20,627 nucleotides of DNA from a virus, in the IMG/VR virus record IMGVR_UViG_3300023184_000608, positions 1-20,627 of that record. One strand, given 5' to 3'. The notes under the pieces were generated by a model. The model worked only from the letters and a program-made list of their open reading frames with translations, had not been told where the DNA came from and did not search any database. Both the position numbers and the translations under genes were made by a program. Positions within the stretch are counted from its first letter, which is position 1; every line of letters begins with the position of its first letter. Positions 77 to 16,200 of the stretch are shown here, piece after piece.

Positions 77-757
77 ATGTTCGAACATGCTCTATTTCCT
101 ACGCTGCTAACCGAGTTTGAATATCCAGAAAAAGACGCATTCAAAGAATCGTTTTATCAGAACATCTTCAAATATATGTCCCCGGAAGGATACTCAAGCG
201 AGTTCACTGGTCATGTTAACATTCATCATGAGCCAGCATTTGAGCCATTTTTCAAGTTTGCTACCGATTCCGTCAAACAGTATATCGCAAGACTTCACTT
301 GGATCCAAATCTGTTTGAATATAATGTGGTGAAAACATGGATGAACATTACCAAAAATCGCATGACGCCTATGCACAATCACGCAGACGCGCACATGTCA
401 TTCACATATTATATTAACATTCCGAAAGAGTTCTCAAAGCCCATTCGATTCTTCAATTACCACACAAGGCATGAGCCATTTCCTGGCTGCATCAAGTTCA
501 ACGAACCTTCCAAGTGGGACGAGTTTAACTCGTACACATGGCAGATTGAACCGCAGGAAGGTAGACTGTTTGTTTTTCCAGCAAATCTGACACACGACAC
601 TGTAGGCCACGAAGAAGCGAAAGAGCCAGGTTGCTTTACTCCAGAAGACATGGATCAGATGCGCGTATGTCTTGCGTGTGATATTCTTCTAACATATAAA
701 AATAAAGCAGCGAAACCATTGGGTGTCCAACCTGTGAGTAACTGGAGAATTTTCTAA
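77..757 (+). CDS. Fe(II)/2-oxoglutarate-dependent oxygenase, phage type
   Basis: 226 residues. The protein shows the landmarks of a double-stranded beta-helix oxygenase. There is a metal-binding stretch MHNHADAHMS, with H100, H102 and D104 (H102-A-D104 forms the HxD pair), a distal histidine H173 in FPANLTH, and R196 as the candidate 2-oxoglutarate carboxylate ligand. The HNH stretch followed by a YY-N-IP strand resembles the putative 2OG-Fe(II) oxygenases common in marine T4-like phages (the 2OG-FeII_Oxy_5 style). Such enzymes use Fe(II), O2 and 2-oxoglutarate to hydroxylate a substrate, which here is unknown. The ATG at 77 is preceded by TAAGG nine bases upstream. The stop codon overlaps the next start by one base (TAATG), so translational coupling with the second oxygenase is likely. 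The family assignment rests on motifs only. Confidence 0.75.
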   Translation: MFEHALFPTLLTEFEYPEKDAFKESFYQNIFKYMSPEGYSSEFTGHVNIHHEPAFEPFFKFATDSVKQYIARLHLDPNLFEYNVVKTWMNITKNRMTPMHNHADAHMSFTYYINIPKEFSKPIRFFNYHTRHEPFPGCIKFNEPSKWDEFNSYTWQIEPQEGRLFVFPANLTHDTVGHEEAKEPGCFTPEDMDQMRVCLACDILLTYKNKAAKPLGVQPVSNWRIF

Positions 758-1377
758 TGGCAAAGTATACCACGATTTATAATGATCCTTACAACCGTGC
801 TAAGATTACTTTACCATTTGCATATTGGGATGGTGCATTTTCAGATGAAGAACTAAATGCAGTTATCGAATATTGCGATTCATTCGGTGTGGAGCAAAGC
901 ACTCTTACTGGCACCACAGATATTGAAGAAGTTAAAAAGTACCGAGAATCCAAGATCAAGTTTCACCAACGCAATCAAGACAACGGATGGATCTTTGACA
1001 AGCTAAACTTTATCATTCAGTCAATCAATGAGATGTATTATGGCTTTGATTTGAATGGCTATAATGTGTTCCAATATACCACATATGACGCTGAAGATGA
1101 AGGTCGATACGACTGGCACATGGATATGGCAATGGGTCATGAACAGCCAGGCGTAGCGGAAATTCGTAAGTTATCTCTTACGCTTCTATTGGATGATGAC
1201 TTCGAAGGTGGTGAGTTCCAAATCAATGGCAGCAATGCACATGAGCCAATCATTGTGCCATTACAAAAAGGACGAGCTATTTTGTTCCCGTCCTTTATGA
1301 TTCACCGCGTTACGCCAGTAACGAAAGGCAAGAGGCGCTCAATCGTTGTATGGGTAGTGGGACCAAAGTTCCAGTAA
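757..1377 (+). CDS. PKHD-type Fe(II)/2-oxoglutarate oxygenase (prolyl-4-hydroxylase-like)
   Basis: 206 residues. The core reads like a PKHD/prolyl-4-hydroxylase-type domain. It has H121-M-D123 in YDWHMDM, then the strand LSLTLLLDDDFEGGEF, an FPSFMIHRVTPV segment carrying the distal ligand H183, and R193/R194 ten to eleven residues later for 2-oxoglutarate. The DDDFEGGEF turn and the FPS..H..TPV block are typical of this group, whose phage members are frequent in T4-like cyanophages and pelagiphages. The length fits a single catalytic domain. The ATG at 757 has GGAG at 744-747 and overlaps the stop of the preceding oxygenase. The substrate is unknown; proteins, nucleic acids or small molecules are all possible. 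The gene ends at 1377, immediately before the end of the convergent minus-strand gene. Confidence 0.85.
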   Translation: MAKYTTIYNDPYNRAKITLPFAYWDGAFSDEELNAVIEYCDSFGVEQSTLTGTTDIEEVKKYRESKIKFHQRNQDNGWIFDKLNFIIQSINEMYYGFDLNGYNVFQYTTYDAEDEGRYDWHMDMAMGHEQPGVAEIRKLSLTLLLDDDFEGGEFQINGSNAHEPIIVPLQKGRAILFPSFMIHRVTPVTKGKRRSIVVWVVGPKFQ

Positions 1378-2307
1378 TTACTTCCACACAACATCTTTTT
1401 CATACTTCTTAATCATTTCAGCCTCTTCTCTGATTGTGCTTTTTAGCTTTTCAGTTGGAAGGCATTTTGTTTCATAATTAATCTTTTCGACCGCATCAGC
1501 AAATTGCTGGTCATAACAAGCTTTGAGCATTAGTTGCGTAAATTTTAAACCAAACTCAGACTTTTCTTTTGGTACAGCAATGTGCATGGTGGAAGTGAAA
1601 ATGAAGTCGTTCATGCCCAATTCTTTTCCAGTAGGAACATTTGGAAAAAGTCTTGATCTTACGGAACCAGACATAACCAATGATCTTAGACCCCTAACAT
1701 CAGTCGGTGAAAATACGGTATAGTCTGATTCTTTTCCGAGCACACTCTTCGTAATATCAAAAGGTGAAGTGTAATTCAAATCTTTAGAAGCTTTTAGTCC
1801 ATTACTTTTAAGGAAAATAGCGTTAAGAAATGGAGTTGCTGGATTGGTTGATGTGCTTCCAAAATACACAACATCTTTCTTGCGAAAACTATCAATCAAA
1901 TTTGCCAGCGTTTTAATTTCAGACTCTGGTTCTACCATTAGATGAAATGGTGTGCCAGCAAAAGCGACAAGTGGTACCAAATCATTATCTCGGTCATATG
2001 CGTTTGGACTAGCTGAAACATACTTACCAAATGTGTAGCCAGATGTTCCTTGCCACAGCAATACATCTTGTCCCGTCCGCGCAAGAGCGATAGTTTTCAG
2101 TGCGGCATTATCACCAGCTGCACCGGGTAAAGATACCAATCGAAACTCGTATTCAATCTGAGCGGCATTTAATCTGTTGACAACTTCATATCCAATGATT
2201 GTCCCAGCTGCACCAGGTGAAAACATCGAATAGATATCAATCTGTTTTGCTGCATATACAGCGTTGGTATACAACATAAGCATCATCACACATAGCATTC
2301 TAATCAT
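1378..2307 (-). CDS. TctC/Bug-family periplasmic solute-binding protein
   Basis: 309 residues. The N-terminus is a signal peptide: a hydrophobic MLCVMMLMLY core followed by AVYA, a signal peptidase I-type site near residue 19. The mature part follows the TctC/Bug plan. There is an early MFSPGAAGT loop (about 28-36), LPGAAGDNAA (about 60-69), DVLLWQGTSGYTF (81-93), and RLFPNVPTGKELG (219-231), the counterpart of the PDVPT..E.G motif of the family. Length is close to the usual 320. Two cysteines, C264 and C282, could form a disulfide in the periplasm. Family members capture carboxylates such as citrate or other organic acids for tripartite tricarboxylate transporters; no membrane subunit is encoded here. 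GAGG lies six bases before the ATG, and the start overlaps the stop of the upstream PP-loop gene by ATGA, so it is co-transcribed. Such a gene in a phage tail region suggests an auxiliary metabolic gene acquired from a bacterium. Confidence 0.78.
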   Translation of the reverse strand: MIRMLCVMMLMLYTNAVYAAKQIDIYSMFSPGAAGTIIGYEVVNRLNAAQIEYEFRLVSLPGAAGDNAALKTIALARTGQDVLLWQGTSGYTFGKYVSASPNAYDRDNDLVPLVAFAGTPFHLMVEPESEIKTLANLIDSFRKKDVVYFGSTSTNPATPFLNAIFLKSNGLKASKDLNYTSPFDITKSVLGKESDYTVFSPTDVRGLRSLVMSGSVRSRLFPNVPTGKELGMNDFIFTSTMHIAVPKEKSEFGLKFTQLMLKACYDQQFADAVEKINYETKCLPTEKLKSTIREEAEMIKKYEKDVVWK

Positions 2308-3515
2308 AGCGCACCTCGAAAATTTGGTTGAAATTGACCAACATAGTATGGCCTTGAGAACATGAACTTGCTCAATTGCTGCTTATTTATTATCTTATCG
2401 TACTTTTTCTTTTTGTATCCAATGTACTCATCATAGAATTGCTGCGACTGGTGGTTTATACCAAGAGCATCTAGCAACTTAAAATCGGAATTTACCTCAG
2501 TCGATTTTGGCGCAACATAGATGGTAGGATTCCAATCTGGATAAATGATGGTGTTGTACCATCTGTCCAAGATATATCCAGGAGATGCTTTGATTGATGG
2601 ATCAGCATTGATACGCTTAATCATGGCCCTAAGTGATTTCCACTCATTGTATAGTTTTTCGTTTGTCGATAGTTTATCAACAATCATGTGAGCTTGCTTG
2701 ACAGGTATCAGTGGAAAATCTGGTGACCAGTAAAAATCTTCAATGGTGTATGATGTACCTTTTTTCTGCATTGATACGGTAGCTGTCAATGTGATGTCAT
2801 AGAACACGAAAAAAATCTTACCATCGTCTGTAATATCAATAACGGGTTTTTCTAGACCTCTGATAACAGCTACACCATCTTTTGTGGAGCTTTCCTCTTC
2901 ATGCTTGAATAGTACCGGTGTCCAGTTTTTCCATAAGCCAGTCGTCACATTTCTGAGGGCTGTTGGCTCATCGTTTCTACCAAGATGTTGAAATTTTTTG
3001 TTTGCGAGCTGGTCAACCAAGTTATCGGATGAATCGAGTAATGTAATCTTGGTATTTGGACTTAGCTCTTTGACTCTTTTGAGTTGAGGAATAACGGCAT
3101 ATTCATACTCCAGAAACTGACTCAACTCGGTGTCAATGACCATCATATTCCTGTCAAGGTTTTTGATGGCCTTTTCGTGCATGATAACTATGATCTCATC
3201 AAGAAATATGCCGTTCTTGATGAATGCTTCCAGTGCTTGCGTCGAATCGCTACCACCAGAATACCTAAGAATTAGGTAATTGTACTTGTCACGAAGCTGT
3301 TGAGCCCGAACTCTGTACAGGGCCGATATGTCAAAGTGTACATTCTTTTCCCAATTGATGTTTGAAAAGATATGGTCGTTGTAGTAAAATTCAATCTTAC
3401 CACCATAATCCTTCTTCAACAGCATAAGATCCAATGCTTCTTCTCGCATCAGAAAAGCTTGATTATCATAAACATAATAACCCAAATGTGGGTACTTCAT
3501 ATCAAAAGTTATCAT
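2304..3515 (-). CDS. PP-loop (N-type ATP pyrophosphatase) family protein, paralogue A
   Basis: 403 residues. The PP-loop nucleotide-binding motif SGGSDST is at residues 86-92, preceded by RAQQLRDKYNYLILRY. This motif marks enzymes that activate a carboxylate, amide or carbonyl by adenylation (asparagine synthetase, GMP synthetase, QueC, tRNA thiolases). Beyond the loop I cannot assign a substrate: no glutaminase domain and no CxxC zinc pair are visible. The protein is clearly related to the product of 6101-7156. Both share the R-AQQ-(L/I)-RD stretch before the loop, an IRGLEKP-like segment (218-224), VKQAH (272-276) and a C-terminal SRPYYVG (387-393). It follows the 144-residue gene with no spacer, has no convincing Shine-Dalgarno sequence, and overlaps the binding-protein gene by four bases. 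An in-frame Met at residue 6 is an alternative start. Confidence 0.72.
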   Translation of the reverse strand: MITFDMKYPHLGYYVYDNQAFLMREEALDLMLLKKDYGGKIEFYYNDHIFSNINWEKNVHFDISALYRVRAQQLRDKYNYLILRYSGGSDSTQALEAFIKNGIFLDEIIVIMHEKAIKNLDRNMMVIDTELSQFLEYEYAVIPQLKRVKELSPNTKITLLDSSDNLVDQLANKKFQHLGRNDEPTALRNVTTGLWKNWTPVLFKHEEESSTKDGVAVIRGLEKPVIDITDDGKIFFVFYDITLTATVSMQKKGTSYTIEDFYWSPDFPLIPVKQAHMIVDKLSTNEKLYNEWKSLRAMIKRINADPSIKASPGYILDRWYNTIIYPDWNPTIYVAPKSTEVNSDFKLLDALGINHQSQQFYDEYIGYKKKKYDKIINKQQLSKFMFSRPYYVGQFQPNFRGAL

Positions 3516-3950
3516 TTATTCGTTTTCGTAAAGAGGATACAATTCACCAGTCAGTCTGTTTCGGATAGCATAGTAGATTTGAAAATTTTCGTCTTTTGAT
3601 TTAATTTTTGGATTTAATTCTAACATTCTTTTTTTAAGATCAACAACAGCCGCATTATATGCTCTTGCTAGAGTGATATTTGAAAAGTAGTACTCAACAA
3701 TCAGTGTAGTATTATCTTCTGTATATCTACGTGTCCAACCTTCGAACCCTTCAAACAATTCTGGAGCCATCTGATCTCTCAGATCCTTAGTTGATTTCCA
3801 TGCCGTTGTATTTTTTACCTTGATACCATCTCTAGCATCGAATAAAACATCAAAAGCTTTTGGTGAATTAATAGGAACATAGATGTCGGCCCAATTACCG
3901 CTTTCAGATTTTACAGTGATTTGACTAATTGTGACTGGTGCGTCTGTCAT
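3516..3950 (-). CDS. Conserved-looking hypothetical protein (144 aa)
   Basis: I do not recognise a family. The 144 residues form a soluble, mixed-charge protein with no signal peptide or membrane segment. An aromatic-rich stretch (GFEGWTRRYTED, then a beta-like LIVEYYFSN) lies in the middle and a basic helix-like segment follows. The start is well supported: AAGGAG lies about six bases before the ATG, one of the strongest ribosome-binding sites in the block. A late-promoter-like GATAAATA sits about 25 bases upstream, overlapping the stop of the oxygenase gene. The next gene starts directly after its stop codon. Position suggests it belongs to the enzyme module, but no function can be given. 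Confidence 0.6.
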   Translation of the reverse strand: MTDAPVTISQITVKSESGNWADIYVPINSPKAFDVLFDARDGIKVKNTTAWKSTKDLRDQMAPELFEGFEGWTRRYTEDNTTLIVEYYFSNITLARAYNAAVVDLKKRMLELNPKIKSKDENFQIYYAIRNRLTGELYPLYENE

Positions 3951-3974
3951 AAAATTCTCCTTTGTTCTTGAGAC

Positions 3975-3982
3975 TATTTATC
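3975..3982 (-). promoter_or_regulatory. Possible T4-type late promoter (GATAAATA)
   Basis: Read on the minus strand this is GATAAATA, one mismatch from the T4 late promoter core TATAAATA. It overlaps the TAA stop of 3978-4847 and lies about 25 bases before the ATG of the 144-residue gene, which has a strong AAGGAG site. This is one of only two non-overlapping spacers over 20 bases among the minus-strand genes, and the other also carries a late promoter core. The short leader and the mismatch make it less certain than the two exact copies. Confidence 0.4.
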
Positions 3983-4847
3983 TCTGATCCAGCACCATAT
4001 TAATTGGATCACTTTCTTTGATGGTTAGATAGTCGGTAAAATTTGTCCACTGATCCACAACCGTTTCTTTTTGATATTTCGCTACGCTTCGATCTAGAAG
4101 ATCGACATACTTATTGAGATTTTTTCCGGTAATACATCTACCCAGCTCTCTAGCTGATACTATCATCAGGATCTTTCGGTAACCACCTTTGTTGTATCTG
4201 CTTGCGTGTTTTTGCCTTAGATTATTCCATGCGAATGAATTGGTGTCTTTTGGTATAGGTAACGTGTAGGTAACGTCGAAGTTATCAGTTTCCCACTCTA
4301 ATGGATCAACCTTCATGTACAGAGTTTCCTCTGGATTGTTGTCAAATAGTTTGATACGGATACCAACAGGTGCGTCAATCTGTGAACCATAATCTCTGTG
4401 AGCTGGCACATCCCAGTTGCTCGACCACATTGACCAGCGAAAGTCTTTCTCCTCGATGAATGGCATATATTCGTGGATCTGTTCAAATATCTCTGGAAAC
4501 TCAGTGTAGATTTCAGGTACCTGATTTGCTGACCAAACATCAGAATGGCCTCCACGCGAGACGGATGTGATAGTTCGATATGGTGAATAATCCGATCCAT
4601 CAAATTGAAGACTGAGAAGGTCTGTCTTTACCTTTGTCGCATTTGTAGATTTCTCAAAATAGAACTTTACAAATTTATCCTTATCATTTGGGGCTATGAT
4701 AGGCAGATCAAACGGAACAAAAAGATATTTACCGTACGCTTTCTCAAAATCTGTATACAGACCATTACCCCAATAGTAACTAGCAGACCGAGCGCGTTGT
4801 TCCGACAACACCGTTTTCGTTTCATCCATCAGTTTTTCTTCTGCCAT
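3978..4847 (-). CDS. Probable Fe(II)/2-oxoglutarate oxygenase (aspartyl/asparaginyl hydroxylase-like)
   Basis: 289 residues. No whole-length family is recognised, but the ligand pattern of a cupin-fold oxygenase is present. H150-R-D152 sits in DVPAHRDYGSQ, followed by beta-like strands (GIRIKLFDNN, ETLYMKV). The distal H214 is in LRQKHASRY, and R224 lies ten residues further in GYRKILMIV, the expected spacing for a 2-oxoglutarate-binding arginine. The phrase H.D...(A/P)..(I/V)R.K.. followed by W.....H....N resembles aspartyl/asparaginyl beta-hydroxylase-type enzymes. The N-terminal 130 residues and the C-terminal 55 are unassigned. The start at 4847 has GGAG seven bases upstream; a second in-frame Met is at residue 7. 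The gene lies two bases after a PP-loop ATPase, suggesting joint action on one substrate, which is inference. Confidence 0.6.
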   Translation of the reverse strand: MAEEKLMDETKTVLSEQRARSASYYWGNGLYTDFEKAYGKYLFVPFDLPIIAPNDKDKFVKFYFEKSTNATKVKTDLLSLQFDGSDYSPYRTITSVSRGGHSDVWSANQVPEIYTEFPEIFEQIHEYMPFIEEKDFRWSMWSSNWDVPAHRDYGSQIDAPVGIRIKLFDNNPEETLYMKVDPLEWETDNFDVTYTLPIPKDTNSFAWNNLRQKHASRYNKGGYRKILMIVSARELGRCITGKNLNKYVDLLDRSVAKYQKETVVDQWTNFTDYLTIKESDPINMVLDQR

Positions 4848-4849
4848 AA

Positions 4850-5668
4850 TTACTCCATTGCTTCTAGCATCTTTAGATATTCATTTCTACTGCCAAATAT
4901 GTAGTGTGGATTATGTGTTAGATATCTTGATCGCCTTAAAACATATTGTGTTTTTTGATATGCAGGACCAAACTCGTATTTCATTTTTGGTCGGTATGGA
5001 AGATCATAAAATTCCGACTTACATTTTTGAATATCGTCGTGATAAGGAAATTTGCGAATCATAGTAGCACTAATTTCTGGTGTATAATTGAAAAAGTAGT
5101 GTGTATTATCTATACCGAGCAATAGATCATTATAGAAGTCCCATTCATTGCAACCAACATTGAATCCGCCATTTTTCTTTTCGTCTATCAGATGTTCGGC
5201 CATAACATAGATGCCACCATTTTCTTTTGCATATTCACCAACAATATACGTGGATATTGAATTATCTCCGTATCCATGGCATCGCATTAGAATGTTGTGA
5301 TAATAAGCCTTAAGCATATCTCCGGCAGTTTTATCAAGCACGACAGAATCTCTTGACCACTTATTACAGAAATCATAAGCGTACTTGACTTCTGCCTGAT
5401 TTCCAGATGTGTCAACAATCACAGGAACATATGGTACTTTTCTTTGTTCAAATGCCGTACAAACAAACTCGGAATCTATACCGCCACTAAGTCCGATGTA
5501 TATCGGTTTATTGTGTGCTACTAATAATTGAATAACATTGTCTACCGCATCATTCCATTGTGTGGACAGATTCCAGTCATCTATCTTTGTCAGAGTAACA
5601 TCGAGATCGAGACCAACATTTGTCCGATCGCAGATGTTACTTTGAAACCAATTTTTGTGCGTTGCCAT
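4850..5668 (-). CDS. PP-loop ATPase, asparagine-synthetase-C-like
   Basis: 272 residues from the ATG at 5668. The nucleotide-binding loop is SGGIDSE at 61-67, preceded by the beta strand PIYIGL. It is followed by VPYVPVIVDTSGNQAEVKYA, in which a second strand and an acidic helix start resemble asparagine synthetase C-domains and QueC/ExsB-like ATPases. No glutamine amidotransferase domain precedes it, so the amine donor would be free ammonia or another protein. It is more distant from the two other PP-loop proteins here and lacks their RAQQ and PYY signatures. The frame extends upstream to a TTG at 5689, but the ATG at 5668 has AAAGG about eight bases upstream and is preferred. The gene then overlaps the hydroxylase gene before it by 32 bases. 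Substrate unknown. Confidence 0.7.
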   Translation of the reverse strand: MATHKNWFQSNICDRTNVGLDLDVTLTKIDDWNLSTQWNDAVDNVIQLLVAHNKPIYIGLSGGIDSEFVCTAFEQRKVPYVPVIVDTSGNQAEVKYAYDFCNKWSRDSVVLDKTAGDMLKAYYHNILMRCHGYGDNSISTYIVGEYAKENGGIYVMAEHLIDEKKNGGFNVGCNEWDFYNDLLLGIDNTHYFFNYTPEISATMIRKFPYHDDIQKCKSEFYDLPYRPKMKYEFGPAYQKTQYVLRRSRYLTHNPHYIFGSRNEYLKMLEAME

Positions 5669-6104
5669 CAATGCCTTTCCATGTACCAAATATCAAGTCC
5701 CAAATGGGAATGAACACTCCATAATTTTTGGTGGCATAATCATGATGAATGAGATGCCACTTGCCACTGGTCAGGAATGGGTAGAGATTGATGCGCTTGT
5801 TATGCTCGACTGCTTCTTGGATAAAACCAGCCCAAATGTAGTACGCAATTAAAAGCCACCAATGACCAGTGATTGCAGATATTATAATCGTTGGAATCAC
5901 TTCTGTCAACCACTGATCTATGGTGCTATTCCAAGTGTCAAAAAATAGAAATGCATTTTTCCAGTTGAGGCCCTGGATTGTTTGGTCTGTTACCTGCGCG
6001 TGATGATCCATGTGAAATTTACGGACAATCGGAATCATATGGGCTGCACGATGCGCCCAATAGACAACAAAAGTCCATAAAAGAAACACAAGGAAGTAGC
6101 TCAT
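5637..6104 (-). CDS. Fatty acid hydroxylase / sterol desaturase superfamily protein (short)
   Basis: 155 residues from the ATG at 6104. Three histidine boxes of the superfamily are complete: H18-RAA-H22, H31-MD-H34-H35 and H117-LI-H120-H121. These ligands hold a di-metal centre that hydroxylates or desaturates lipids, sterols or carotenoids at a membrane. A hydrophobic N-terminus (SYFLVFLLWTFVVYW) and a second hydrophobic stretch (about 68-95) fit a membrane protein. The protein is short for the family, which is usually above 200 residues, but nothing catalytic is missing. The frame is open further to a TTG at 6134, but the ATG at 6104 forms an ATGA overlap with the stop of the upstream PP-loop gene, so I place the start there. 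No good Shine-Dalgarno is visible, suggesting translational coupling. A carotenoid-hydroxylase-like role cannot be excluded. Confidence 0.78.
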   Translation of the reverse strand: MSYFLVFLLWTFVVYWAHRAAHMIPIVRKFHMDHHAQVTDQTIQGLNWKNAFLFFDTWNSTIDQWLTEVIPTIIISAITGHWWLLIAYYIWAGFIQEAVEHNKRINLYPFLTSGKWHLIHHDYATKNYGVFIPIWDLIFGTWKGIDGNAQKLVSK

Positions 6105-7156
6105 TTCAGGTAGTATGGTTGCGAGAAGAAGCAATGCTTTCTATTGATACTGGTATGTTTTGAAATTGTTCTCATGCCTTCCAGTGTCATTTTGTACATA
6201 GCACTATCAGTTTTTGATAGCATGAACATATCTCTGGCGCTAAGTGAACTGTACATAGATTTTGTCGATTCAAATTGCAGTGGCGTTCTAAGGTTATATA
6301 TGATGCTATTCATACGCTTCATGCGATCCATGTACGCGACTTCTCTTTGCCAACCATGAGGTAATGTTTTACCATGCATTATCATGTCAACAAAAAGAGT
6401 TTCGAACCTCATGACAACATGCGCTTGCTTTACCATGATCTTTATAACGATATCATCTGTTCCATTGTAGAAATTGATGCGCTTGAAATTTTCGTCTTCA
6501 TAGTTTGCGCCATAGTCATTGACAGATAGATCATTGAAACGGACACAATTATCAAGGGCTTCATATCCTGGCTTATCAGAACCCATGATATAGCATGTTT
6601 TTTTGTTATTGTTTCTACCAATAAATTTCTTCAGGTCATACCAGAAAAGATTGTGGACGCTTTTAAATGCACCGATATGATTGGTCCATTCATTACCGTA
6701 TTTCTTGATAAGTGTGAAATTGTTTGGATCGGTAAAGTGTTCGGTATAGTCTGTTACCGTAATCTTTGTGTTTGGCAAATTCATACTATTCAATGTTGGA
6801 AATGCATTGAGGTATATGTCGCCATTATGATTTTCATCGGTACCTTTTTCTTTATCCTGAGAAAAAGCACCAACCAAAAGAATCTCATCTATGTGTATGT
6901 TATTGTAATAGAATGTTTCTAAAATATTGGTAGAATCATAGCCACCAGAATAGCATAGAATTACATAATCGTATTGATCGCGAATCTGCTGTGCGCGTTC
7001 GCGATACAATGTGTCTAGCGATTCAATTGGCTCTGTTTTCCAATCTACCTTTGAAAACACATCATCGTGAAAGTAAAAAGAGCAATGCCTGTTTGAAGCA
7101 ACAGCTTCAGCATGTGTTGGATAGACATTTCTATCCTCATCATAATAAAACATCAT
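6101..7156 (-). CDS. PP-loop (N-type ATP pyrophosphatase) family protein, paralogue B
   Basis: 351 residues. SGGYDST at 70-76 is the ATP-binding PP-loop, preceded by RAQQIRDQYDYVILCY and followed by IDEILLVG. It matches the product of 2304-3515 in the same order: an FYF.DD.FS..DW segment near residue 27-40, the RAQQ-RD stretch, the PP-loop, MGSDKPG (191-197), VKQAH (242-246) and a C-terminal SQPYYLK at the very end. The two are therefore diverged copies of one gene, now separated by four other genes. The reaction is presumably adenylation of a carboxyl or amide group, with substrate unknown. The gene starts nine bases after the stop of the 143-residue gene, and there is an ATGATG at the start. 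Its own stop forms an ATGA overlap with the hydroxylase gene. Confidence 0.72.
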   Translation of the reverse strand: MMFYYDEDRNVYPTHAEAVASNRHCSFYFHDDVFSKVDWKTEPIESLDTLYRERAQQIRDQYDYVILCYSGGYDSTNILETFYYNNIHIDEILLVGAFSQDKEKGTDENHNGDIYLNAFPTLNSMNLPNTKITVTDYTEHFTDPNNFTLIKKYGNEWTNHIGAFKSVHNLFWYDLKKFIGRNNNKKTCYIMGSDKPGYEALDNCVRFNDLSVNDYGANYEDENFKRINFYNGTDDIVIKIMVKQAHVVMRFETLFVDMIMHGKTLPHGWQREVAYMDRMKRMNSIIYNLRTPLQFESTKSMYSSLSARDMFMLSKTDSAMYKMTLEGMRTISKHTSINRKHCFFSQPYYLK

Positions 7157-7165
7157 TGAATGTGT

Positions 7166-7597
7166 TTACCCTGTGGTTTTGTTGGTAAAATTATCCTTTG
7201 ATAGCGATTCAATCAAACTCTTAATGTCGTCATCTGTTAGAACATCGGCCTTCTTAGCAAGAAGTTCTTCAGTATTTTTGATAACTGTTTTACCAAGCAA
7301 TGCTTTTACACCACTCAATGTTGTGTCTATATCAGGATCATTTACAGCTTCCATTTTGCGAAGCCATGCCATTGGCGCGTTCATCAGAATAAAATCTTCC
7401 AGCACTTGTCCTTCTAGCGCAGGAATAGGCATGTCCAATGATACATCCGTGCGACAGCGCATAGGTGTTCCATCTGCACGACGATTGTTGTCGTATGGTT
7501 GCTTTAGCATTTCCTCTGTCAATTTATCGGTTGTATATCTAACAACAAACAAATGGTCATCAGGCCATACTTCAATGATTCTGTAATGAATGTTCAT
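7166..7597 (-). CDS. Hypothetical protein downstream of the collagen-like fibre (143 aa)
   Basis: I do not recognise a defined domain. The N-terminus (NIHYRIIEVWPDDHLFVVRY) is a beta-hairpin-like stretch of a kind seen in small proteins encoded beside fibre genes of marine T4-like phages. The C-terminal third is helix-rich and charged (TDDDIKSLIESLSKDN). The ATG overlaps the stop of the collagen-like gene by ATGA, so translation is coupled. Position directly after two fibre genes suggests an accessory such as a fibre cap or assembly chaperone; that is inference from position only. The opposite strand also carries a long open frame here, but it lacks the operon context. Confidence 0.6.
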   Translation of the reverse strand: MNIHYRIIEVWPDDHLFVVRYTTDKLTEEMLKQPYDNNRRADGTPMRCRTDVSLDMPIPALEGQVLEDFILMNAPMAWLRKMEAVNDPDIDTTLSGVKALLGKTVIKNTEELLAKKADVLTDDDIKSLIESLSKDNFTNKTTG

Positions 7598-8964
7598 CCT
7601 ACTGGTCCTGTTCTAGTTCCTGTGTTAATCCAACTTGTCACATACGCATTGCCTGTTACAGCATTTCCTCGAGGGCCTGTTGCTCCCGTTGCGCCTGTGG
7701 CTCCCGTGTCTCCAACAGCACCTGTGGCTCCTGGATTACCTGTTGTTCCTGTCGCTCCTGGAGAACCACCGCCTGCCGCATTACCAGCTGGTCCTGCCGC
7801 GCCTGCACCGCCCCCGCCTTGAACGGCACCCCAACCAGCGGGCGAGCCATAAGGAGGATTAGCACTTGAAGCACCACCTGCATTTAAGTTTCCACCAGGA
7901 CCGCCTGATCCGTAACCAGACCAACCAATAGTACCACCCGCACCGCCAGCATTTGCACTACCCGGCGCGCCCGCATTTCCTGATGTTACGCCAGGATAAT
8001 ATCCACCGGGTCCGCCGCCACCAACAGTCGATCCTGCACCACCGCCACCACCGCCACCGGCGCCGTCTGGATCGGCCTTAGCGTTATATGCATAACCACC
8101 TCCGCCTCCGCCACCACCGCCTCCGGCGCTGCTACCACCACCATTTGATCCGCCGCCTGCTGCGCCACCTGGGCCACCAGCGCCGCCGGGCCCACCTGGG
8201 CCTCCTGGTCCGCCAGGGCCACCGACTCCGCCGGGTCCGCCTGTTCCACCAGTACCGCCGATAAATGATGTTGTGTTTTCGATAACAGTTATAAGACCAG
8301 TAACGGAATCGACCTGAAATGCGACACCGCCGGTACCACCAGCATTTCCTGTACCGCCTGTGCCGCCTGTGTTTCCTTTACCGCCCGCATTGCCTTGTCC
8401 GCCACCGTTACCCTGCGAACCGTTATTGCCAGGTGTACCGTTGTTACCTGGATTTCCCGGTGAACCACCACCTCCAGCATTACCAACTACTTGCCAATAA
8501 GCAGGTGAGTTATAGCCTGCTGGTACACCTTTAGATGCTGGATAATAACCCGAAGCAGGAAAATAAATTGGTGAACCCGTACCGCCACCTCCACCGACAC
8601 CATTTGATCCAGGATTTCCTGGTGTGCCTGGATTACCTGCTGCACCCGGGTTACCTGCGAGACCTGTAGTACCTGGTGTTCCTGTTGTGCCTGGATTACC
8701 TGGGTTGCCTGTTGTGCCAGAAGTACCTGTACCACCTGTGATAGTGCCAGTGTTTTTAACATACACAAACGAACCAGCTTTCCAACCTGTACCAGTTTTA
8801 AATGCTGGTGTGTTAGGACTTGATGATCCGATGTTATTATTGATAAAGCATAGCAAGTTCAACGGATATGTAGGTGCAGCCGATGTGTTATATAGATCCA
8901 CATTATTTGTGGAACTATCAATACTAACAACCTTAGTTGGTCTTGCCATTAAAAATGTGAACAT
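7594..8964 (-). CDS. Glycine-rich collagen-like tail fibre / adhesin
   Basis: 456 residues. A non-repetitive N-terminal part (about 1-75, including MARPTKVVSID and a W61-K-A-G-SFVYV segment) is probably the attachment or trimer-start domain. It is followed by Gly-X-Y collagen-like triplets (about 81-124), a short aromatic interruption (SPIYFPASGYYPA), Gly-Asn-rich repeats (161-213) and a small hydrophobic interruption (VAFQVDSVTGLITVIEN). A GGPGGP block (238-270) comes next, then Gly runs broken by variable loops (271-398), a second collagen-like stretch (399-432) ending GATGATGATGPRG, and a short tail. Such alternation suits a trimeric collagen helix or packed polyglycine-II helices with exposed variable loops, as in receptor-binding phage adhesins. 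The ATG at 8964 is three bases after the tail-fibre stop; Met6 (8949) is an alternative start. Neither has a strong ribosome-binding site. Confidence 0.8.
   Translation of the reverse strand: MFTFLMARPTKVVSIDSSTNNVDLYNTSAAPTYPLNLLCFINNNIGSSSPNTPAFKTGTGWKAGSFVYVKNTGTITGGTGTSGTTGNPGNPGTTGTPGTTGLAGNPGAAGNPGTPGNPGSNGVGGGGGTGSPIYFPASGYYPASKGVPAGYNSPAYWQVVGNAGGGGSPGNPGNNGTPGNNGSQGNGGGQGNAGGKGNTGGTGGTGNAGGTGGVAFQVDSVTGLITVIENTTSFIGGTGGTGGPGGVGGPGGPGGPGGPGGAGGPGGAAGGGSNGGGSSAGGGGGGGGGGYAYNAKADPDGAGGGGGGGAGSTVGGGGPGGYYPGVTSGNAGAPGSANAGGAGGTIGWSGYGSGGPGGNLNAGGASSANPPYGSPAGWGAVQGGGGAGAAGPAGNAAGGGSPGATGTTGNPGATGAVGDTGATGATGATGPRGNAVTGNAYVTSWINTGTRTGPVG
7669..7770 (-). repeat. Collagen-like Gly-X-Y coding repeat, C-terminal block
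   Basis: About 34 residues (399-432) of nearly perfect Gly-X-Y triplets, rich in GAT and GNP units, near the end of the collagen-like protein. The sequence is degenerate at codon level, so selection appears to act on the protein. Confidence 0.75.
8155..8253 (-). repeat. GGP/GGX low-complexity block, GC-rich
   Basis: Residues 238-270 of the collagen-like protein are GGT, GGP, GGV and GGA triplets, including four consecutive GGP-type units. The DNA is clearly richer in G and C than the surrounding genes. Short near-identical trinucleotide runs make the segment prone to slippage or recombination, which would change fibre length. Confidence 0.7.
8593..8724 (-). repeat. Collagen-like Gly-X-Y coding repeat, N-terminal block
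   Basis: Residues 81-124 of the collagen-like protein form about 14 Gly-X-Y triplets with frequent GNP, GTT and GTP units. Several triplets carry proline at the third position, the place hydroxylated in animal collagen. Confidence 0.75.
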
Positions 8965-8967
8965 GTG

Positions 8968-9996
8968 TTATCTTACATCCGGCATAAATGAACCATAGAG
9001 ATATGTACCATCAGAAACGAACGAAAATACGTCATGCGCGCCCGCAGCAGTAGATAGTGGCGGAGCAACACCAGCAGTCCACTTAAAGATTGCATTCCAT
9101 GTTGCTGTACGACCACCAGTACCGTCTTGATAAATGTGGAGAATATATGTGCCAACTTTTAGATTTGATGGTGCACCGATTGTGCGGTTACCACCAAGTG
9201 TAACAGTAGCAATCTGACCAGCTGAAGTGTCCCATGCAACAGTTGCTGCGTCGGACAGATTTTGACTTTTAATGTTTGCAGTTGCGGTGCTTACGGTACC
9301 ATTGAATGTGGAGTTACCAGAAACTGTGAGATTCTGAGTGACATTTAGTGATCTATTTACAGTAACGAGACCAGAAGATGCAATGGTAAATCTATCAGCC
9401 AGACCGAGCTGGACACCCCAACCCGAAGTGTTAGCAGTAATCTTTGCGACCTCAACACCATTGATGGTATAGAAGTCATATGTGTTATAACCTGTTGGTG
9501 CTTTTCTTTGGAATGCAGCCGTTGCGCCTGTCGATTCAGCAACAACCGCTTGACTGGCTGCTTTGGAAACCGTGAGAACACCACCAATATTAGTATTACC
9601 ACCAACGAACAAGTTTGTGGAAACCGACGCACGACCAGCAACACCGAACCAACCTTGTACGTTTGCAGTCTTACCTACACCACCGATAGTCGAGTTACCA
9701 GATACGTTTAGATTCGTACCGACAGCAAGACGACCAGACGCCGTTGTTAGGCCTGTGATTGTGGTATTGCCCGTAACACCTAGATTGGTACCAACTACGG
9801 CTCTACCTGATGCAGTAAATAGACCCGTGACAGTTGCAGTTCCTTTCGCAGTAAACGCTACGTTGGATGTCAGAGTGTTAGCATAAAGAGAAGAGTTGTT
9901 GATAGCAAACTGGCTCATACGATCCAACACAGCGTTGGTTCGTGTTCTCCACGTGTTAAATGTATCCGTAAGGGCGACGTTAGCTATCTTAGCCAT
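8968..9996 (-). CDS. Tail fibre protein with beta repeats and a conserved C-terminal domain
   Basis: 342 residues. The N-terminus (ALTDTFNTWRTRTNAVLD) is the short attachment-like segment found at the start of many fibre proteins of marine T4-like phages. Residues 60-141 contain imperfect repeats of about 25 residues built on TASGR..VGTNL.V.GN(T/S)TI, and a further copy lies near 213-235. These are probably beta-strand turns of a fibre shaft. The C-terminal 80 residues (VTLGGNRTIGAPSN, then GTYILHIYQDGTGGRT, KWTAGVAPPLST, FVSDGTYLYG) match a domain common at the tips of phage tail fibres. No tail-spike enzyme motif or self-cleaving chaperone is seen. AGGA lies six bases before the ATG, which is three bases after the stop of the 71-residue gene. 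A late promoter core lies about 70 bases upstream. Confidence 0.8.
   Translation of the reverse strand: MAKIANVALTDTFNTWRTRTNAVLDRMSQFAINNSSLYANTLTSNVAFTAKGTATVTGLFTASGRAVVGTNLGVTGNTTITGLTTASGRLAVGTNLNVSGNSTIGGVGKTANVQGWFGVAGRASVSTNLFVGGNTNIGGVLTVSKAASQAVVAESTGATAAFQRKAPTGYNTYDFYTINGVEVAKITANTSGWGVQLGLADRFTIASSGLVTVNRSLNVTQNLTVSGNSTFNGTVSTATANIKSQNLSDAATVAWDTSAGQIATVTLGGNRTIGAPSNLKVGTYILHIYQDGTGGRTATWNAIFKWTAGVAPPLSTAAGAHDVFSFVSDGTYLYGSFMPDVR
9574..9816 (-). repeat. Imperfect tandem repeat in tail-fibre shaft
   Basis: About three copies of a roughly 25-residue unit (TASGR.VVGTNL.VTGNTTI and variants) code for residues 61-141 of the tail fibre. The third copy is more diverged and contains a short insertion (KTANVQGWFG). 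Confidence 0.65.
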
Positions 9997-10217: not shown

Positions 10218-13200
10218 TTACCTCTGAAGAGCGATTGCACGAAGTTCGTGTACACGCGGCGGATTTGTGCTTGATTCATTTGTCAATACAACTTTAATTG
10301 CGAAGTACTTGAATCGAACATAACGAGCTTTTGTCGAGTTGCGATATTCAACAATGCCTGTTGTTGTGTTTGCGCCATACTGATTGATAGCACGGCCAGA
10401 TGTATCTAATATTGAGTACCCAACTGAAGGGCAAGCAAAATCTGGCATTGTGTACGTCAACTCAATATAATCATTCTTATTGACTGTGCTTGAGTATGCG
10501 TTTGTCAGTGTGAATCCTTGTGAAGTATCGCGTGACATTGGAATCCAACGAGCGTCAGCAAATGTGTCGTTATCATCTTGGCTTAAAATCTTAGAATAGA
10601 CTTTAACATCTGATCCTGGCGGAATGTAAGCTGCAAGATAAACACGAAGGTCTTCTGCATCCTGACCATCAGCAAGAGTTACGCGACGAGTGATGTAACG
10701 CATCTTAGAGTTACCACCAAACTTTACCCAATCTTCTGACGATCCAATTTCAGCATTAGAACTAATCAAATTGTGTGTCGCAACAATCGAAATTCTGTTT
10801 ACGTCAATTGCCGGTGAAGCAACAACATTTCGACAATCTAGATTGTAAATGATTTCAGCAGATTTATTTCTTCCCATAGTTGCAGATGAAGAAGAAGTGT
10901 TTGCTTCATTGCTGCGACTCAAGACATAACGTGGAGAATCGAATTCTGTATGACCATTGATATTCAATTGGTTAAATGATGTGTCTCTTGTGCTTGTACT
11001 CTTAGCAAACTTACCATATGCCGTAATCATAGTATTTGATGGCTGAATCATGTTTGTCTGAAGATTGATATTATCCATTGGAATATTATCAATCGAGACG
11101 ATACGCGCACTATAGCCATTTGTCTGACCTGTGATCCAGTATCCTGGAACAAACAGACGATTTGCGCTGTTTGCAGGACCGCTGTTTGCATATGAAGTGT
11201 TTGCAATATGTAGTTTTGTGTTTGCATAGTTTACCACATCGTAGTAAGTCGAGCGACCAACTGGATATGTGATAGACTTAACAGCGGTACATGTACCAAT
11301 CTTGTTAGCAACAGGTGTTGTGCTTCCTGTTGGAGGAACATTGTAGAGATTGATTGTTTCGCCACCTCTGAACGCATTATTGATTGAGTTTGTTTTAATG
11401 CGAATAGAGCTTGTGCTATATGATGTGATTGTGCCGGTTGCATTTGAAGTTACGCCCATTGCATAGCACAATGTTACGCCAGCAGTATTTACAGACTTCG
11501 TGTTAGAGAATGTGCCAACTAGAAGCTGTTCACCATAAATGACTTCACCAATCTTGTTGAATGCACCTGTTGTGTTTGCGATTGTTAGATAGTCACGATT
11601 TTCATTCTTAACAACCATCACACCAGTATTGTCTTTTTCAAACTTGGCATGATATGCAGTGAATTTAATATCCTCGTTTTCTACAGGAACCCATAGACGC
11701 TGATTAGCTGAAGTGAACAAGAACCCAGTGCATGGTTGCTCAGACACACGCGCTTGTGTAGCTATATCTTTTTCACCAAGAACTGCGGTAAATGCGTTGT
11801 AGTTTGGATTTGTTCCTGCAGGAACAAGAGCCATCGCATATTCTTTTCCTTCGGCCAAATAAACTGGTGAAGGGAAATATACAGGTGTTGGTGCAGTGCC
11901 ATCATCACTTAGATTTACGTCAGCTGGTGCCAGAACAACGCGAGAGAACGGTACAACACGAGGTGTAATATTACCGGTAATCTCATCAACTTCACGAAGC
12001 TCAACAGTGATTGGTAGCTTTGAATCCTTTGTAGCAAAATATAGATCCAATTTAGTTAGGTACATTCCGCTAGTTTGCATCTTATTTGATACAAGCGCAG
12101 TGATAAGCATTGTCTGTGCGATAGGATCACTACCACAGCCACCTCCGCCACCACAGTTACCACCATCAGCTTGCGCAGTGCCATCGCCACCGCCACCTCC
12201 GCCCCACGAATCGCCAGCATCACCAACGGGAGCTGGAACATTACCAACAACACGTTGACCACCAACAGAAGTGCCGAATTGTGTTTCACCATTTCTTGTT
12301 TCTGTTAAGATATTTTGTGCTAGAATTGCTCTCTTTGTTGAGAGTGTCAAATCAGAAACACCGGCCATTAAGCCTTCAGCAGTATATGGCGCTTCACACG
12401 ATGTTGTGAATTGACCAAAAATTTTACTGTTCGTTGGATTATCCACAAAACGAAGACGTTTTGTTCCTGTGCGGAAACGCAGTGACGTATCACTTGGAAG
12501 ACGGAACACACCCCATGCAGATCCATTAGAATCTGTATACATAGGACTACCTTCACCAGCAGTTGGTTTTGCTGGAGCTCCGCTAGAAGTCTTTAGACCA
12601 GACTCATATTCAGCTTCAGTTAATGGCGTAATATATCTATTAACATCGGTGCTATCAAAGAATCCATAAACTCGGCTGCTACTCTTTAGACCAAACATCT
12701 TGAACAAAATCATACGCGAGCGCATGAATGGCTGAATGTTTACGTCCTTAACAAAATTACCTACAGATTCCTTTGAGCTAACAACCGTGGCTTTTACGCC
12801 AGTTCCAGTGCGCGCTTGAATTGTTGGTGAAGTGTAAATGCTCTGAGTGATAAAGTTCTGAACGATATCTGTCGAACCGTCTGCCTGTGGAACATAGGTC
12901 AGACCTTGATCGACTTCAGATTGGGCGCTTAGAACTGGTTGACCAGTAAATGTTGTCTCCCATCCATTCCACTGCGTTTGCCATGCGTTAGCTAACCAAA
13001 CAAAGTTGTCTGTGTTAAGATCGACATTCATATTTGTATCTGGTCGCGTAGTCGTATCGCACCAGTAATCACTATCCGGTGTCAATACAAGTGTTCCTAA
13101 CCATGTGTATGCAGTGCCAACGCAGTTGCGAGTTGTTGTTGCATATGGCTGACGAATTAGAGGATGGTGAGTATATGGCAATGTCACTAGATCGCCAGGT

Positions 13201-16200
13201 GTAGGACTAGAAACTGCTAATATGCTAACGCTTGAAAATACAACATTAGGCTCGACCGTTAGACTTATTGTTCCGCCTACCGTAAAGTTTCCTGTGCATT
13301 GTTCTAGATATAGTTTACCAGAACCGCCTATTGCTTTTCCATATCCACTTGGTGATCTACTTCTAATGACACCAGTAACTGCACCAGAGGTAACAGTTGA
13401 ACCAATTACGGCTATAGAGGCATATTCATCGCCAATAGTAATTGTTTGATCGCGAGAAACTCCAGCTGGCGTTACGTTTGTGCGTACCACATTTGATGAA
13501 TTTGCCGTGTAAACAAGAGCTACGTTATCAACACTTGCAAGAGGACGCATCTCTCCTTTTTGAGAATCAACGCTCCACTTTAGATCGGTATCATGCGGAT
13601 TAGAAATTGAGAATCCCTTGAATGAATCAACAAGAATGCCGTTCTTAAATCTATCCAAACCATTAGAGTCTGGAATCAATAGATCCTTGGCATTTTTTTC
13701 TAAAAGATTCAAAGATGTGTAGTACTCGAGGCGGTCAATACGGTCACGAATTGTACCAATATCACGCATCGTATAACGCTCGTTGCGAATCTTACGAACC
13801 GTGTTTGAAAGATCAGCGCGGTTAACACGACGGCCAATTTCAATTGGTAGTGATGGATATGGTGCAAGAGAGACCGTGGCAAGAGCCATCAAATCCTCTG
13901 GAACAGCCGGTGCTGCTGGACGAATGGCTGGCATACCACGAACAACTTCTACCTTACCACGTTTATCAATAGCAATGGTATCAATACGCTTCAAATAGTA
14001 ATCAGCATCGGTTGTAAAATCTTGACCTGTTGGTGAAAATTTCAAACAACCGGTTGGATTATAGAATGATGTTGAAGTGAGTGGATTAATTGAAATACCA
14101 GTAAGCGCGGTAACGCTATTAGCCGTATCAGCAATACGAGGACGAATATCCAATGAATCGCGTAAATCATAAGTAATACCATCTACTGTAGATGTGTAGA
14201 TTGGAATTTCATATGTGTAGATTTTAGATGTGTCCGTAGATGCTGTAGTATCATTTACTGGATACGAATCGACAGAGAAGAATCCTACACCAGAAGAGTG
14301 GCTATGTGTAAAGTGGTCAAAAGAAACTAGTAGACGATCACCAGACGCAATTGAAAGACTACTTGTTGACTTCTTCTTCAATTGAGCATGGTCATAATAG
14401 TTATCTCTCATGCCAGTATCAAGAATAAAATCATTAGTTACGTCGGTACCTTCTGTCAAAGTACCAAAGTTTGAACCACTCTTTTTGCGAACGGATACAA
14501 GCTTAAATCCATCGGATAGACCTAGTGGCCATGGACCAGTGGTATTAGCTGTGTATGAAGTACCACCACCGGCACCAACACGAATCTGGACTAAACGATT
14601 GCGAACAACCGATTTACCCATTTCTTGACCGTTGATTTGATTTATATGTGCTGTGATAGATAGTGGTGCACCTGTTGTGTTAAACGTCTCATTCAAATTG
14701 ATCGTTGCCGCGCGAGCGGGCGTAGATGAAATCTGAACTGTTCGTGCGCCATTGTATCCATATCCACCAAGATCAACAACTTGACCAGAAATGAATTTCT
14801 TATAGTACTTACCACTGGTAACTGTAGCCGCTGCTGTACCAAGAACTTGCAATGAAGTATCACTTGTTACCGCACTTACAATAAGATCACCAGCTGGTCC
14901 AATATGAAGAACATCGCCGACGTTGATTTTTGTTGAGAATCCAGTACCAGTTACCGTATTTGCACCAGATGTGATAGATACGCTACCAGCTGCGACTGTA
15001 TTAGCAGCACTAGTTACAACTGCATAGAAATCAGAGCGACGAGCAGATTGACTTAGTAGTGAACCGCCACCATCAAATGTTTGATTATCATCGCCCGTGT
15101 TAATAACAGCAACACCAGATGTGTCGGTTGTCTGTGTGAATGTTTTATAGAATTCAAAATCGTTTCTTATTGTTCCAGATGTGCTACGCAAAGTTTTAGT
15201 TGCGTTTGTAGGAAGACGGAAGATAGAACGATCAGTAGCAGCATCTTGTGTATTGGCTGATAGATAACGAACGTCAGCTTTTCCTGGAGTGTTTGCGTTA
15301 TATGCAAGACCTTGAACCTGAAGGAATGACTTACCAGCATTCATCTTAACGTCGGTAAGATACATTTTATAAAGCGCACTTGGTGAACCTGGTGTTCCTG
15401 TGTAGTATTCGATACCTTTCACACGCGCGGTACCAATTGTAGCACCCTTAGCACCACCTGATGGCCATGTTGTCGAGTAAACACCCAAGCTTGCAGCATT
15501 TGATTGATTATCTTTTAGATTGATAACACCTTGACCGTCAATATTCCATTTACCAACCACGTTATCAACGATGATATAATTGCCGTAATCTACAAGAGCT
15601 TTAGCATCTGCAACCGAAGCATAATCTGTTGCCTTCTGCATGTTAACACGACTAGATACAATAGTCTGAATATCATATCCCTTAACATAAGCTTTTCCTG
15701 GCTCAACAATAGCCACAAGTCTGTTTGCACTTCCGCCAGCTGCAAGAGTATATACGCCTTGGTTATTACCAGACTTTAGATTTTCTTTGATGTTGACATT
15801 TAAACCGGTAACAATATAATCACCAGATTCATCTGATGTACGTTGCGCCATGTAATCACGAATCTGTGAATACTGAGTACGATTTGATAGAGACTGAACG
15901 ACACCATCTTTTACCTGCATCAACTCGATAAAGGTATTTGATACTGTGGTATTGATATCGAGAGATTTTAGATCAACTTCTAGCTTCAAACGCGCAGCAC
16001 CTGGTGCCGCATAGTTATATGAACCAGATGCTGGATCTAGAAGTGTACTATCATCAACTTCTGTGATGATTGATTCTTTAATATCAAAACCAACACGGAC
16101 ATTTGGATATGTGTCGTACTTACTTAGAACCAGTGTTTGAGAAGGAACACGAATAAAGTGATCCTTGGCATATACAATACCAGAAGTAAATGTGGCAGCT

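Follow-up and report, generated by a model that had tools for sequence, protein, structure and literature searches.

The seven-gene cassette

The complete IMG/VR record IMGVR_UViG_3300023184_000608 (20,627 bases; the window) carries, between positions 1378 and 7156, a cassette of seven minus-strand genes for putative activating enzymes, oxidising enzymes and a solute-binding protein. From high to low coordinates these are PPa (6101..7156), a PP-loop ATPase and the most conserved member of the cassette; FAH (5637..6104), a di-iron membrane enzyme of the fatty acid hydroxylase superfamily; PPb (4850..5668), a PP-loop ATPase of the NAD synthetase/asparagine synthetase-like type; OGc (3978..4847), a predicted 2-oxoglutarate (2OG)/Fe(II) dioxygenase and an optional member; U144 (3516..3950), a small partner protein of 144 residues; PPc (2304..3515), a PP-loop ATPase paired with the binding protein; and TctC (1378..2307), a solute-binding protein of the tripartite tricarboxylate transporter (TTT) type with a Sec-type signal peptide.

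All seven open reading frames are uninterrupted and lie where the initial annotation placed them. The frames of PPb and FAH open at 5689 and 6134; alignment with relatives sets the true starts at conserved ATG codons at 5668 (272 residues) and 6104 (155 residues). After this correction the junctions measure -4, -32, +2, +27, 0 and -4 bases, and each of the seven genes overlaps or lies at most two bases from at least one neighbour; the initial annotation had described a compact block with this tightness for six. Its enzyme classes (three PP-loop enzymes, a FAH-type enzyme, a 2OG oxygenase and a binding protein) are right and the active-site motifs are intact. Structure prediction, which it had proposed as a check, gives PP-loop fold neighbours for PPa and a 2OG dioxygenase fold for OGc.

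Occurrence in viral metagenomes

With PPa alone as query, 40 viral loci are found. In the 33 loci with at least 5 kb downstream, PPb is present in 26, FAH in 25, OGb in 22, OGa in 21, PPc in 19 and TctC in 17. OGa (77..757; PF13759, 8.8e-12) and OGb (757..1377; PF13640, 2e-14) are 2OG-Fe(II) oxygenase genes on the plus strand, convergent with the cassette. The order that recurs at 30-95% identity is a gene for a 143-residue protein, PPa, FAH, PPb, optionally OGc, optionally a small protein, PPc and TctC, followed by OGb and OGa on the opposite strand. About 30 PPa contigs hold the conserved cassette, and the order PPa-FAH-PPb is stable across wide divergence. Profile scans with PPc, FAH and PPb added many contigs. 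After removal of overlaps the whole set forms 137 contig groups; these are split by shared 31-mers, so that close relatives may count separately.

The binding protein and a PP-loop gene form a recurrent pair. Among 71 contig groups with a binding protein, 67 also hold a PP-loop gene, and the two are adjacent in 59; of 42 TctC genes, 39 have a PP-loop gene as direct neighbour, compared with 11% of unassigned genes. PP-loop or FAH sequences served as bait for most loci. The only independent bait was the binding-protein family c5, the TctC alignment (A6) being too divergent for this purpose and a narrower set being used; c5 proteins lie beside PPa or the QueC-like family c26 in about 14 contigs new to the analysis. 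The pairing recurs with different subfamilies on both sides, in varied orders and at varied genomic sites.

The initial annotation had expected a block conserved in the same order. The neighbourhood is indeed conserved in viral metagenomes, but two members are optional and the PPc-TctC pair is often duplicated, inverted or reordered; the extension of the neighbourhood to OGa and OGb was overlooked, and the binding protein was treated as one member among others, which missed the recurrent PP-loop/TctC pairing as the key feature. Scattered single homologues or broken active sites, either of which was to count against a common function, were looked for and not found; dozens of independent contigs carry the genes together.

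GenBank phages contain no match to PPa, PPb, PPc, TctC or c5, and FAH matches two Acinetobacter phage records at 28%. A recent bacterial origin of the genes is rejected since GTDB genomes contain just three relatives, at least one of which is probably a phage contig. One short contig in an archaeal metagenome-assembled genome (L193, 1-12702) carries desaturases, OGc- and FAH-like genes, PP-loop genes, CoA-transferase III and TctC; it is probably a misbinned phage fragment with what looks like a further cassette. The clearest non-phage relative is a PPa/PPc homologue on a chromosomal-looking Bacteriovoracaceae contig (L195, 9923-11604), beside a gene with a weak match to the staphylopine enzyme CntL.

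PP-loop ATPases

PP-loop enzymes use adenylation to activate carboxyl, amide or similar groups. The SGGxDS pyrophosphate-binding motif is invariant in 32 relatives of PPa, 28 of PPb and 22 of PPc. The GxDK and KQ motifs are also invariant across the 32 PPa relatives, as is a GxEKP-type motif among relatives of PPc. PPa and PPc are paralogues (32% identity; 100% in profile-profile comparison). A HUP/Rossmann-type fold is predicted for PPa, the one protein of the three modelled (pLDDT 92). Its best Foldseek matches in the PDB are LarE, GMP and NAD synthetases and carbapenam synthetase, all weak (best E 9.4e-4, TM score about 0.2-0.35); the close matches among viral predicted structures are uncharacterised phage proteins only.

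PPb matches Pfam Asn_synthase with E 0.002 and 18.1 bits, under the PF00733 cut-off of 21; its family profile finds NAD synthetase (8e-6) and TtuA (2e-5). The Pfam scan gave no meaningful match for PPa, PPc, OGc or U144, and profiles of PPa, PPc and OGc found no useful sequence match in the PDB. An N-terminal glutaminase domain was not found in Pfam scans of the PP-loop proteins, which are 272-403 residues long. Membership of the asparagine synthetase family is rejected on these grounds. The cassette enzymes have SGGxDS and the fold in common with amide- and nitrile-forming PP-loop enzymes (asparagine synthetase, beta-lactam and carbapenam synthetases, QueC, PesC); PPa and PPc differ from these in forming their own family, with GxDK/GxEK and KQ motifs and no glutaminase domain. 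They would represent a new, essentially phage-specific family of PP-loop ATPases.

Several other genes lie near the cassettes of relatives: QueC-like, amidoligase, ATP-grasp, radical-SAM, desaturase, CoA-transferase III, carbamoyltransferase and SBP_bac_5. The QueC-like genes (c26) mostly contain a C-x2-C-x2-C motif as in QueC; their matches to PF06508 (E 0.055) and to QueC in the PDB (E 0.076) are weak, the former being under the cut-off.

Binding proteins and transporter subunits

TctC proteins serve TctA/TctB carriers by binding small acids in the periplasm. The window TctC matches PF03401 with E 6e-9 (36.3 bits against a cut-off of 27), and its family profile finds Bug/TctC structures down to 4e-16. 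The binding-protein families c5, c44 and TctC are related by profile comparison. Signal-peptide-like N-termini, called by a simple hydrophobicity and AxA rule and not by SignalP, are present in 281 of 321 binding proteins and in 2 of 859 control enzymes; the window TctC has such an N-terminus.

Neither TctA nor TctB was found among the open reading frames of the window or by Pfam scan, and the window does not encode a complete TTT transporter. TctA is present in 4 of 18 related records (E <= 2e-39), in each case beside PP-loop genes; three copies are intact and one has internal stops. The match in L042 reaches E 4.8e-125. TctA matches in GenBank phage records were set aside, as they appear to be host DNA and the records are unannotated or bacterial. 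A TctC-TctB-TctA run was found once among the relatives: in L041 (3555-6026) and L042 the three genes are consecutive beside PP-loop genes and amount to a nearly complete phage-encoded TTT transporter. The TctB-like frame has 104 residues, with an in-frame TGA near its end.

TTT binding proteins of alphaproteobacteria and Bordetella are often found without membrane subunits of their own, and Bordetella and Rhodoplanes have large sets of such TctC proteins (PMC5994714); a phage-made TctC could therefore plausibly use host carriers. The cassette binding protein belongs to the same family as those of the bacterial TctCBA and Bug systems, and a few relatives have TctA and one has TctB. Unlike the bacterial systems, those described here are phage-encoded, are paired with PP-loop ATPases and mostly lack membrane subunits.

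In two phages, a Porin_2 outer-membrane porin gene at a second site lies directly before a further, distant PP-loop gene, which is followed by a SPASM radical SAM gene (L332, 5190-7705; L333, 5005-7520). Another relative (L336, 7369-16419) carries in one run two PPc genes, a TctA broken by stops or a frameshift, 2OG-like genes, a carbamoyltransferase and an SBP_bac_5 binding protein.

Oxidising enzymes and small proteins

Enzymes of the FAH and 2OG types hydroxylate or desaturate their substrates. FAH matches PF04116 (E 1.5e-16), and the histidines of its HxxxH/HxxHH/HxxHH motifs are all invariant in 26 relatives. Its match to the ornithine-lipid hydroxylase OlsE is weak (0.0012, far under the cut-off), and in other phages a desaturase adjoins FAH. 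Together with the porin, which suggests an alphaproteobacterial-type host, these observations are consistent with remodelling of host lipids or the host envelope: FAH and the 2OG oxygenases would hydroxylate an amino-acid lipid or a similar molecule and the PP-loop enzymes would modify its head group, altering the host surface. The OlsE match may however reflect shared superfamily only, and no evidence connects the PP-loop enzymes or the TctC proteins with lipids; this explanation is very improbable.

OGc is a predicted 2OG/Fe(II) dioxygenase with an HxD...H triad and, in the model (pLDDT 86), a double-stranded beta-helix fold. H150-x-D152, H214, R164 and K225 are invariant (14 sequences for the iron triad). 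Foldseek neighbours are ALKBH2, HalA/BesD and PHD2 (E about 1e-4, TM score 0.3-0.5). HalA/BesD among these raised the possibility of a halogenase; the invariant HxD carboxylate argues for hydroxylation over halogenation.

U144 holds a conserved position before PPc and is related to the c32 family (profile-profile comparison, 96%). The small proteins found beside the pair (U144, c32 and c300; c61, c54 and c123) fall into one or two related families by the same method.

Selection and mosaicism

In comparison with the relative L004, PPa, OGa and OGb show a ratio of nonsynonymous to synonymous substitution rates (dN/dS) of 0.03, FAH one of 0.08 and U144 one of 0.16. Synonymous divergence (dS) is saturated for PPc, TctC, PPb and OGc; the ratio of nonsynonymous to synonymous differences per site (pN/pS) for these genes is 0.16-0.29. 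Purifying selection where dS is unsaturated (dN/dS 0.03-0.16) excludes the possibility that the open reading frames are artefacts. FAH (5637-6104) has a dS of 0.25 in this comparison, well under the value of about 0.88 for PPa, OGa and OGb, which suggests local recombination or constraint.

The window is 88% identical to its closest relatives, L003 and L004, over 1-1407 and 5637-9333, while 1408-5636 is mostly replaced; one breakpoint falls a short way beyond OGb, and the other coincides with the end of FAH. Across relatives, OGc and U144 may be present or absent. L003, L004, L025 and L043 each have two PPc-TctC pairs, one of which is inverted in L003 and L004. The initial annotation had taken the gene order as a sign of one co-translated pathway; there is no fixed operon, and the block from PPb to TctC is swapped between close relatives.

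This mosaicism, together with the many optional genes, is what would be expected if the site after the fibre genes were a hotspot that collects individually useful genes of different pathways, so that proximity reflected insertion history. The distances of PPb, PPc and TctC also do not track those of PPa, FAH, OGa and the 143-residue protein gene, or one another. A collection of unlinked genes does not explain why PP-loop genes and binding-protein genes are adjacent across subfamilies, orders and genomic sites, or why PPa, FAH and PPb keep their order over wide divergence and the genes overlap; a hotspot is an unlikely explanation for the cassette.

Proposed function

The recurrent pairing of PP-loop genes with exported binding proteins, and the presence of TctA/TctB in some relatives, point to small-molecule import. 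The cassette may well be an auxiliary-metabolic system by which small carboxylates are taken up, activated with ATP and converted to an oxidised product; we put the chances of this at about even. In such a system the phage TctC-type protein would be exported to the host periplasm, capture a specific small acid, as members of its family do, and hand it to a TctA/TctB carrier that is mostly host-encoded and in some relatives phage-encoded. The partner PP-loop ATPase would then adenylate the acid to give an amide, nitrile, thio-acid or similar compound. Finally, the FAH-type di-iron enzyme and the 2OG oxygenases would hydroxylate or desaturate this product. The cassette would make a single product, and PPc would act on the ligand of the neighbouring TctC. 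Through swapping of the PPb-to-TctC segment, related phages could differ in the acids that they use.

The fibre protein, a host lipid or a small metabolite had been named as candidate targets; the evidence leans to a small metabolite. A tentative extension of import and activation is a modular biosynthetic pathway with a precursor-import arm, in which each binding protein captures one carboxylate, the paired PP-loop enzyme activates it, and FAH, the 2OG oxygenases and further enzymes build up a new metabolite to the advantage of the infection. The pairs would then be exchangeable building-block units. Carboxylate-type chemistry near the cassettes (the QueC-like cysteine motif, amidoligase, ATP-grasp and CoA-transferase III) supports import and activation of carboxylates.

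Several points weigh against import and activation of carboxylates. The pairing counts are partly ascertained because of the baits with which most loci were found, and co-inheritance of PPc and TctC is not significant in a mirror-tree type test (partial Mantel 0.19, p 0.053). The substrates of PP-loop enzymes also include tRNA, proteins and sugars. In the majority of contigs, the window among them, TctC occurs without TctA/TctB, so transport would depend on the host; the binding proteins could also serve in sensing rather than transport. The position of the cassette among virion genes fits a virion-directed role as well.

Phages are known for single uptake or metabolic genes; a conserved cassette for import, activation and oxidation would go further. 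If the proposal is true, these phages redirect the uptake of the infected cell and make a specific product from what is taken up, and the pocket of the binding protein offers a direct experimental handle on the substrate.

Position among virion genes

The large minus-strand gene at 10218-16742 has homologues in 1,518 GenBank phage records, with best matches in Ochrobactrum phage OC, Pelagibacter phage HTVC008M and related T4-like phages of Kyanoviridae. Judged by this homology to T4-like phage genes, the window comes from the genome of a T4-like phage in an environmental sample and represents a piece of it. On one side of the cassette are the fibre/adhesin and 143-residue protein genes, on the other OGa and OGb. 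In Ochrobactrum phage OC, the cultured phage checked, the neck genes follow the fibre genes almost directly; the cassette thus appears as an insert at the place where fibre and neck genes adjoin. In most relatives it follows the fibre, adhesin and 143-residue protein genes and precedes a neck-like gene (c13), identified as such by eye and position.

The 143-residue protein (7166..7597, minus strand) is conserved in its position between adhesin and cassette and forms the upstream boundary; it is fibre-associated and possibly a chaperone. Its upstream neighbour outside the cassette (7594..8964, minus strand) is a glycine-rich, adhesin-like protein. By eye this protein resembles T-even gp38-type adhesins; a PDB search returned low-complexity matches only and gave no confirmation.

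This location favours the main rival explanation, modification of the virion. PP-loop enzymes and oxygenases would modify the fibre or the glycine-rich adhesin (by amidation, nitrile or other C-terminal activation, or hydroxylation) and so tune receptor binding, and TctC would supply a building block or be incidental. 2OG oxygenases are common in T4-like phages, and in nitrilobacillin biosynthesis asparagine-synthetase-like PP-loop enzymes and 2OG or other iron hydroxylases modify peptide C-termini (PMC13060819). Virion modification however leaves the exported binding proteins, TctA/TctB and the porin beside PP-loop genes unexplained. The pairs are not confined to this locus or to phages that share its flanking genes. 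Enzymes of the FAH type are membrane proteins, and their usual substrates are lipid-like. Virion modification is rather unlikely.

Relation to known systems

Among phage systems in the literature, the pstS/phoA cluster of cyanophages comes closest to the proposed import system. There, T4-like phages carry a gene for an exported solute-binding protein, next to which two phages have an enzyme gene for obtaining the solute (PMC3037559). This cluster differs in that it combines a phosphate ABC-type binding protein with a phosphatase and has no PP-loop ATPase, FAH, TctA/TctB or pair duplication. A tctA gene on a SUP05-associated viral contig, its role given as unknown, and a 2OG-FeII oxygenase have been listed among viral auxiliary genes (PMC4164917); tctA is a domain match only, and no PP-loop pairing or cassette is reported there. 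2OG-FeII oxygenases are also known from cyanophages; OGa and OGb belong to the phage families phrog_81 and phrog_61. Unlike the cyanophage enzymes, they flank a binding-protein/PP-loop cassette; OGc represents a further, unassigned family.

No description of the cassette was found in GenBank phages, PHROGs or the literature searched, which is weak evidence as subscription journals were mostly outside the search; the initial annotation had likewise known of no phage system of this composition. To judge by these searches, a conserved cassette in which exported proteins that bind acids appear to be coupled with ATP-dependent activating enzymes and oxygenases is undescribed. It falls under phage auxiliary metabolism, with an unusual composition. 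Viral metagenomes contain the cassette often and records of cultured phages not at all, and current annotation has thus overlooked it.

Promoter motifs

The T4 late-promoter motif TATAAATA has two sites in the window, which is not above chance; neither precedes the cassette. A perfect sigma-70 consensus (TTGACA-17-TATAAT) lies on the minus strand inside FAH, at 5909-5881, upstream of the swapped PPb-to-TctC segment. It is kept in L003-L006 and L026 and absent from most relatives, and is possibly a by-product of conserved protein sequence.

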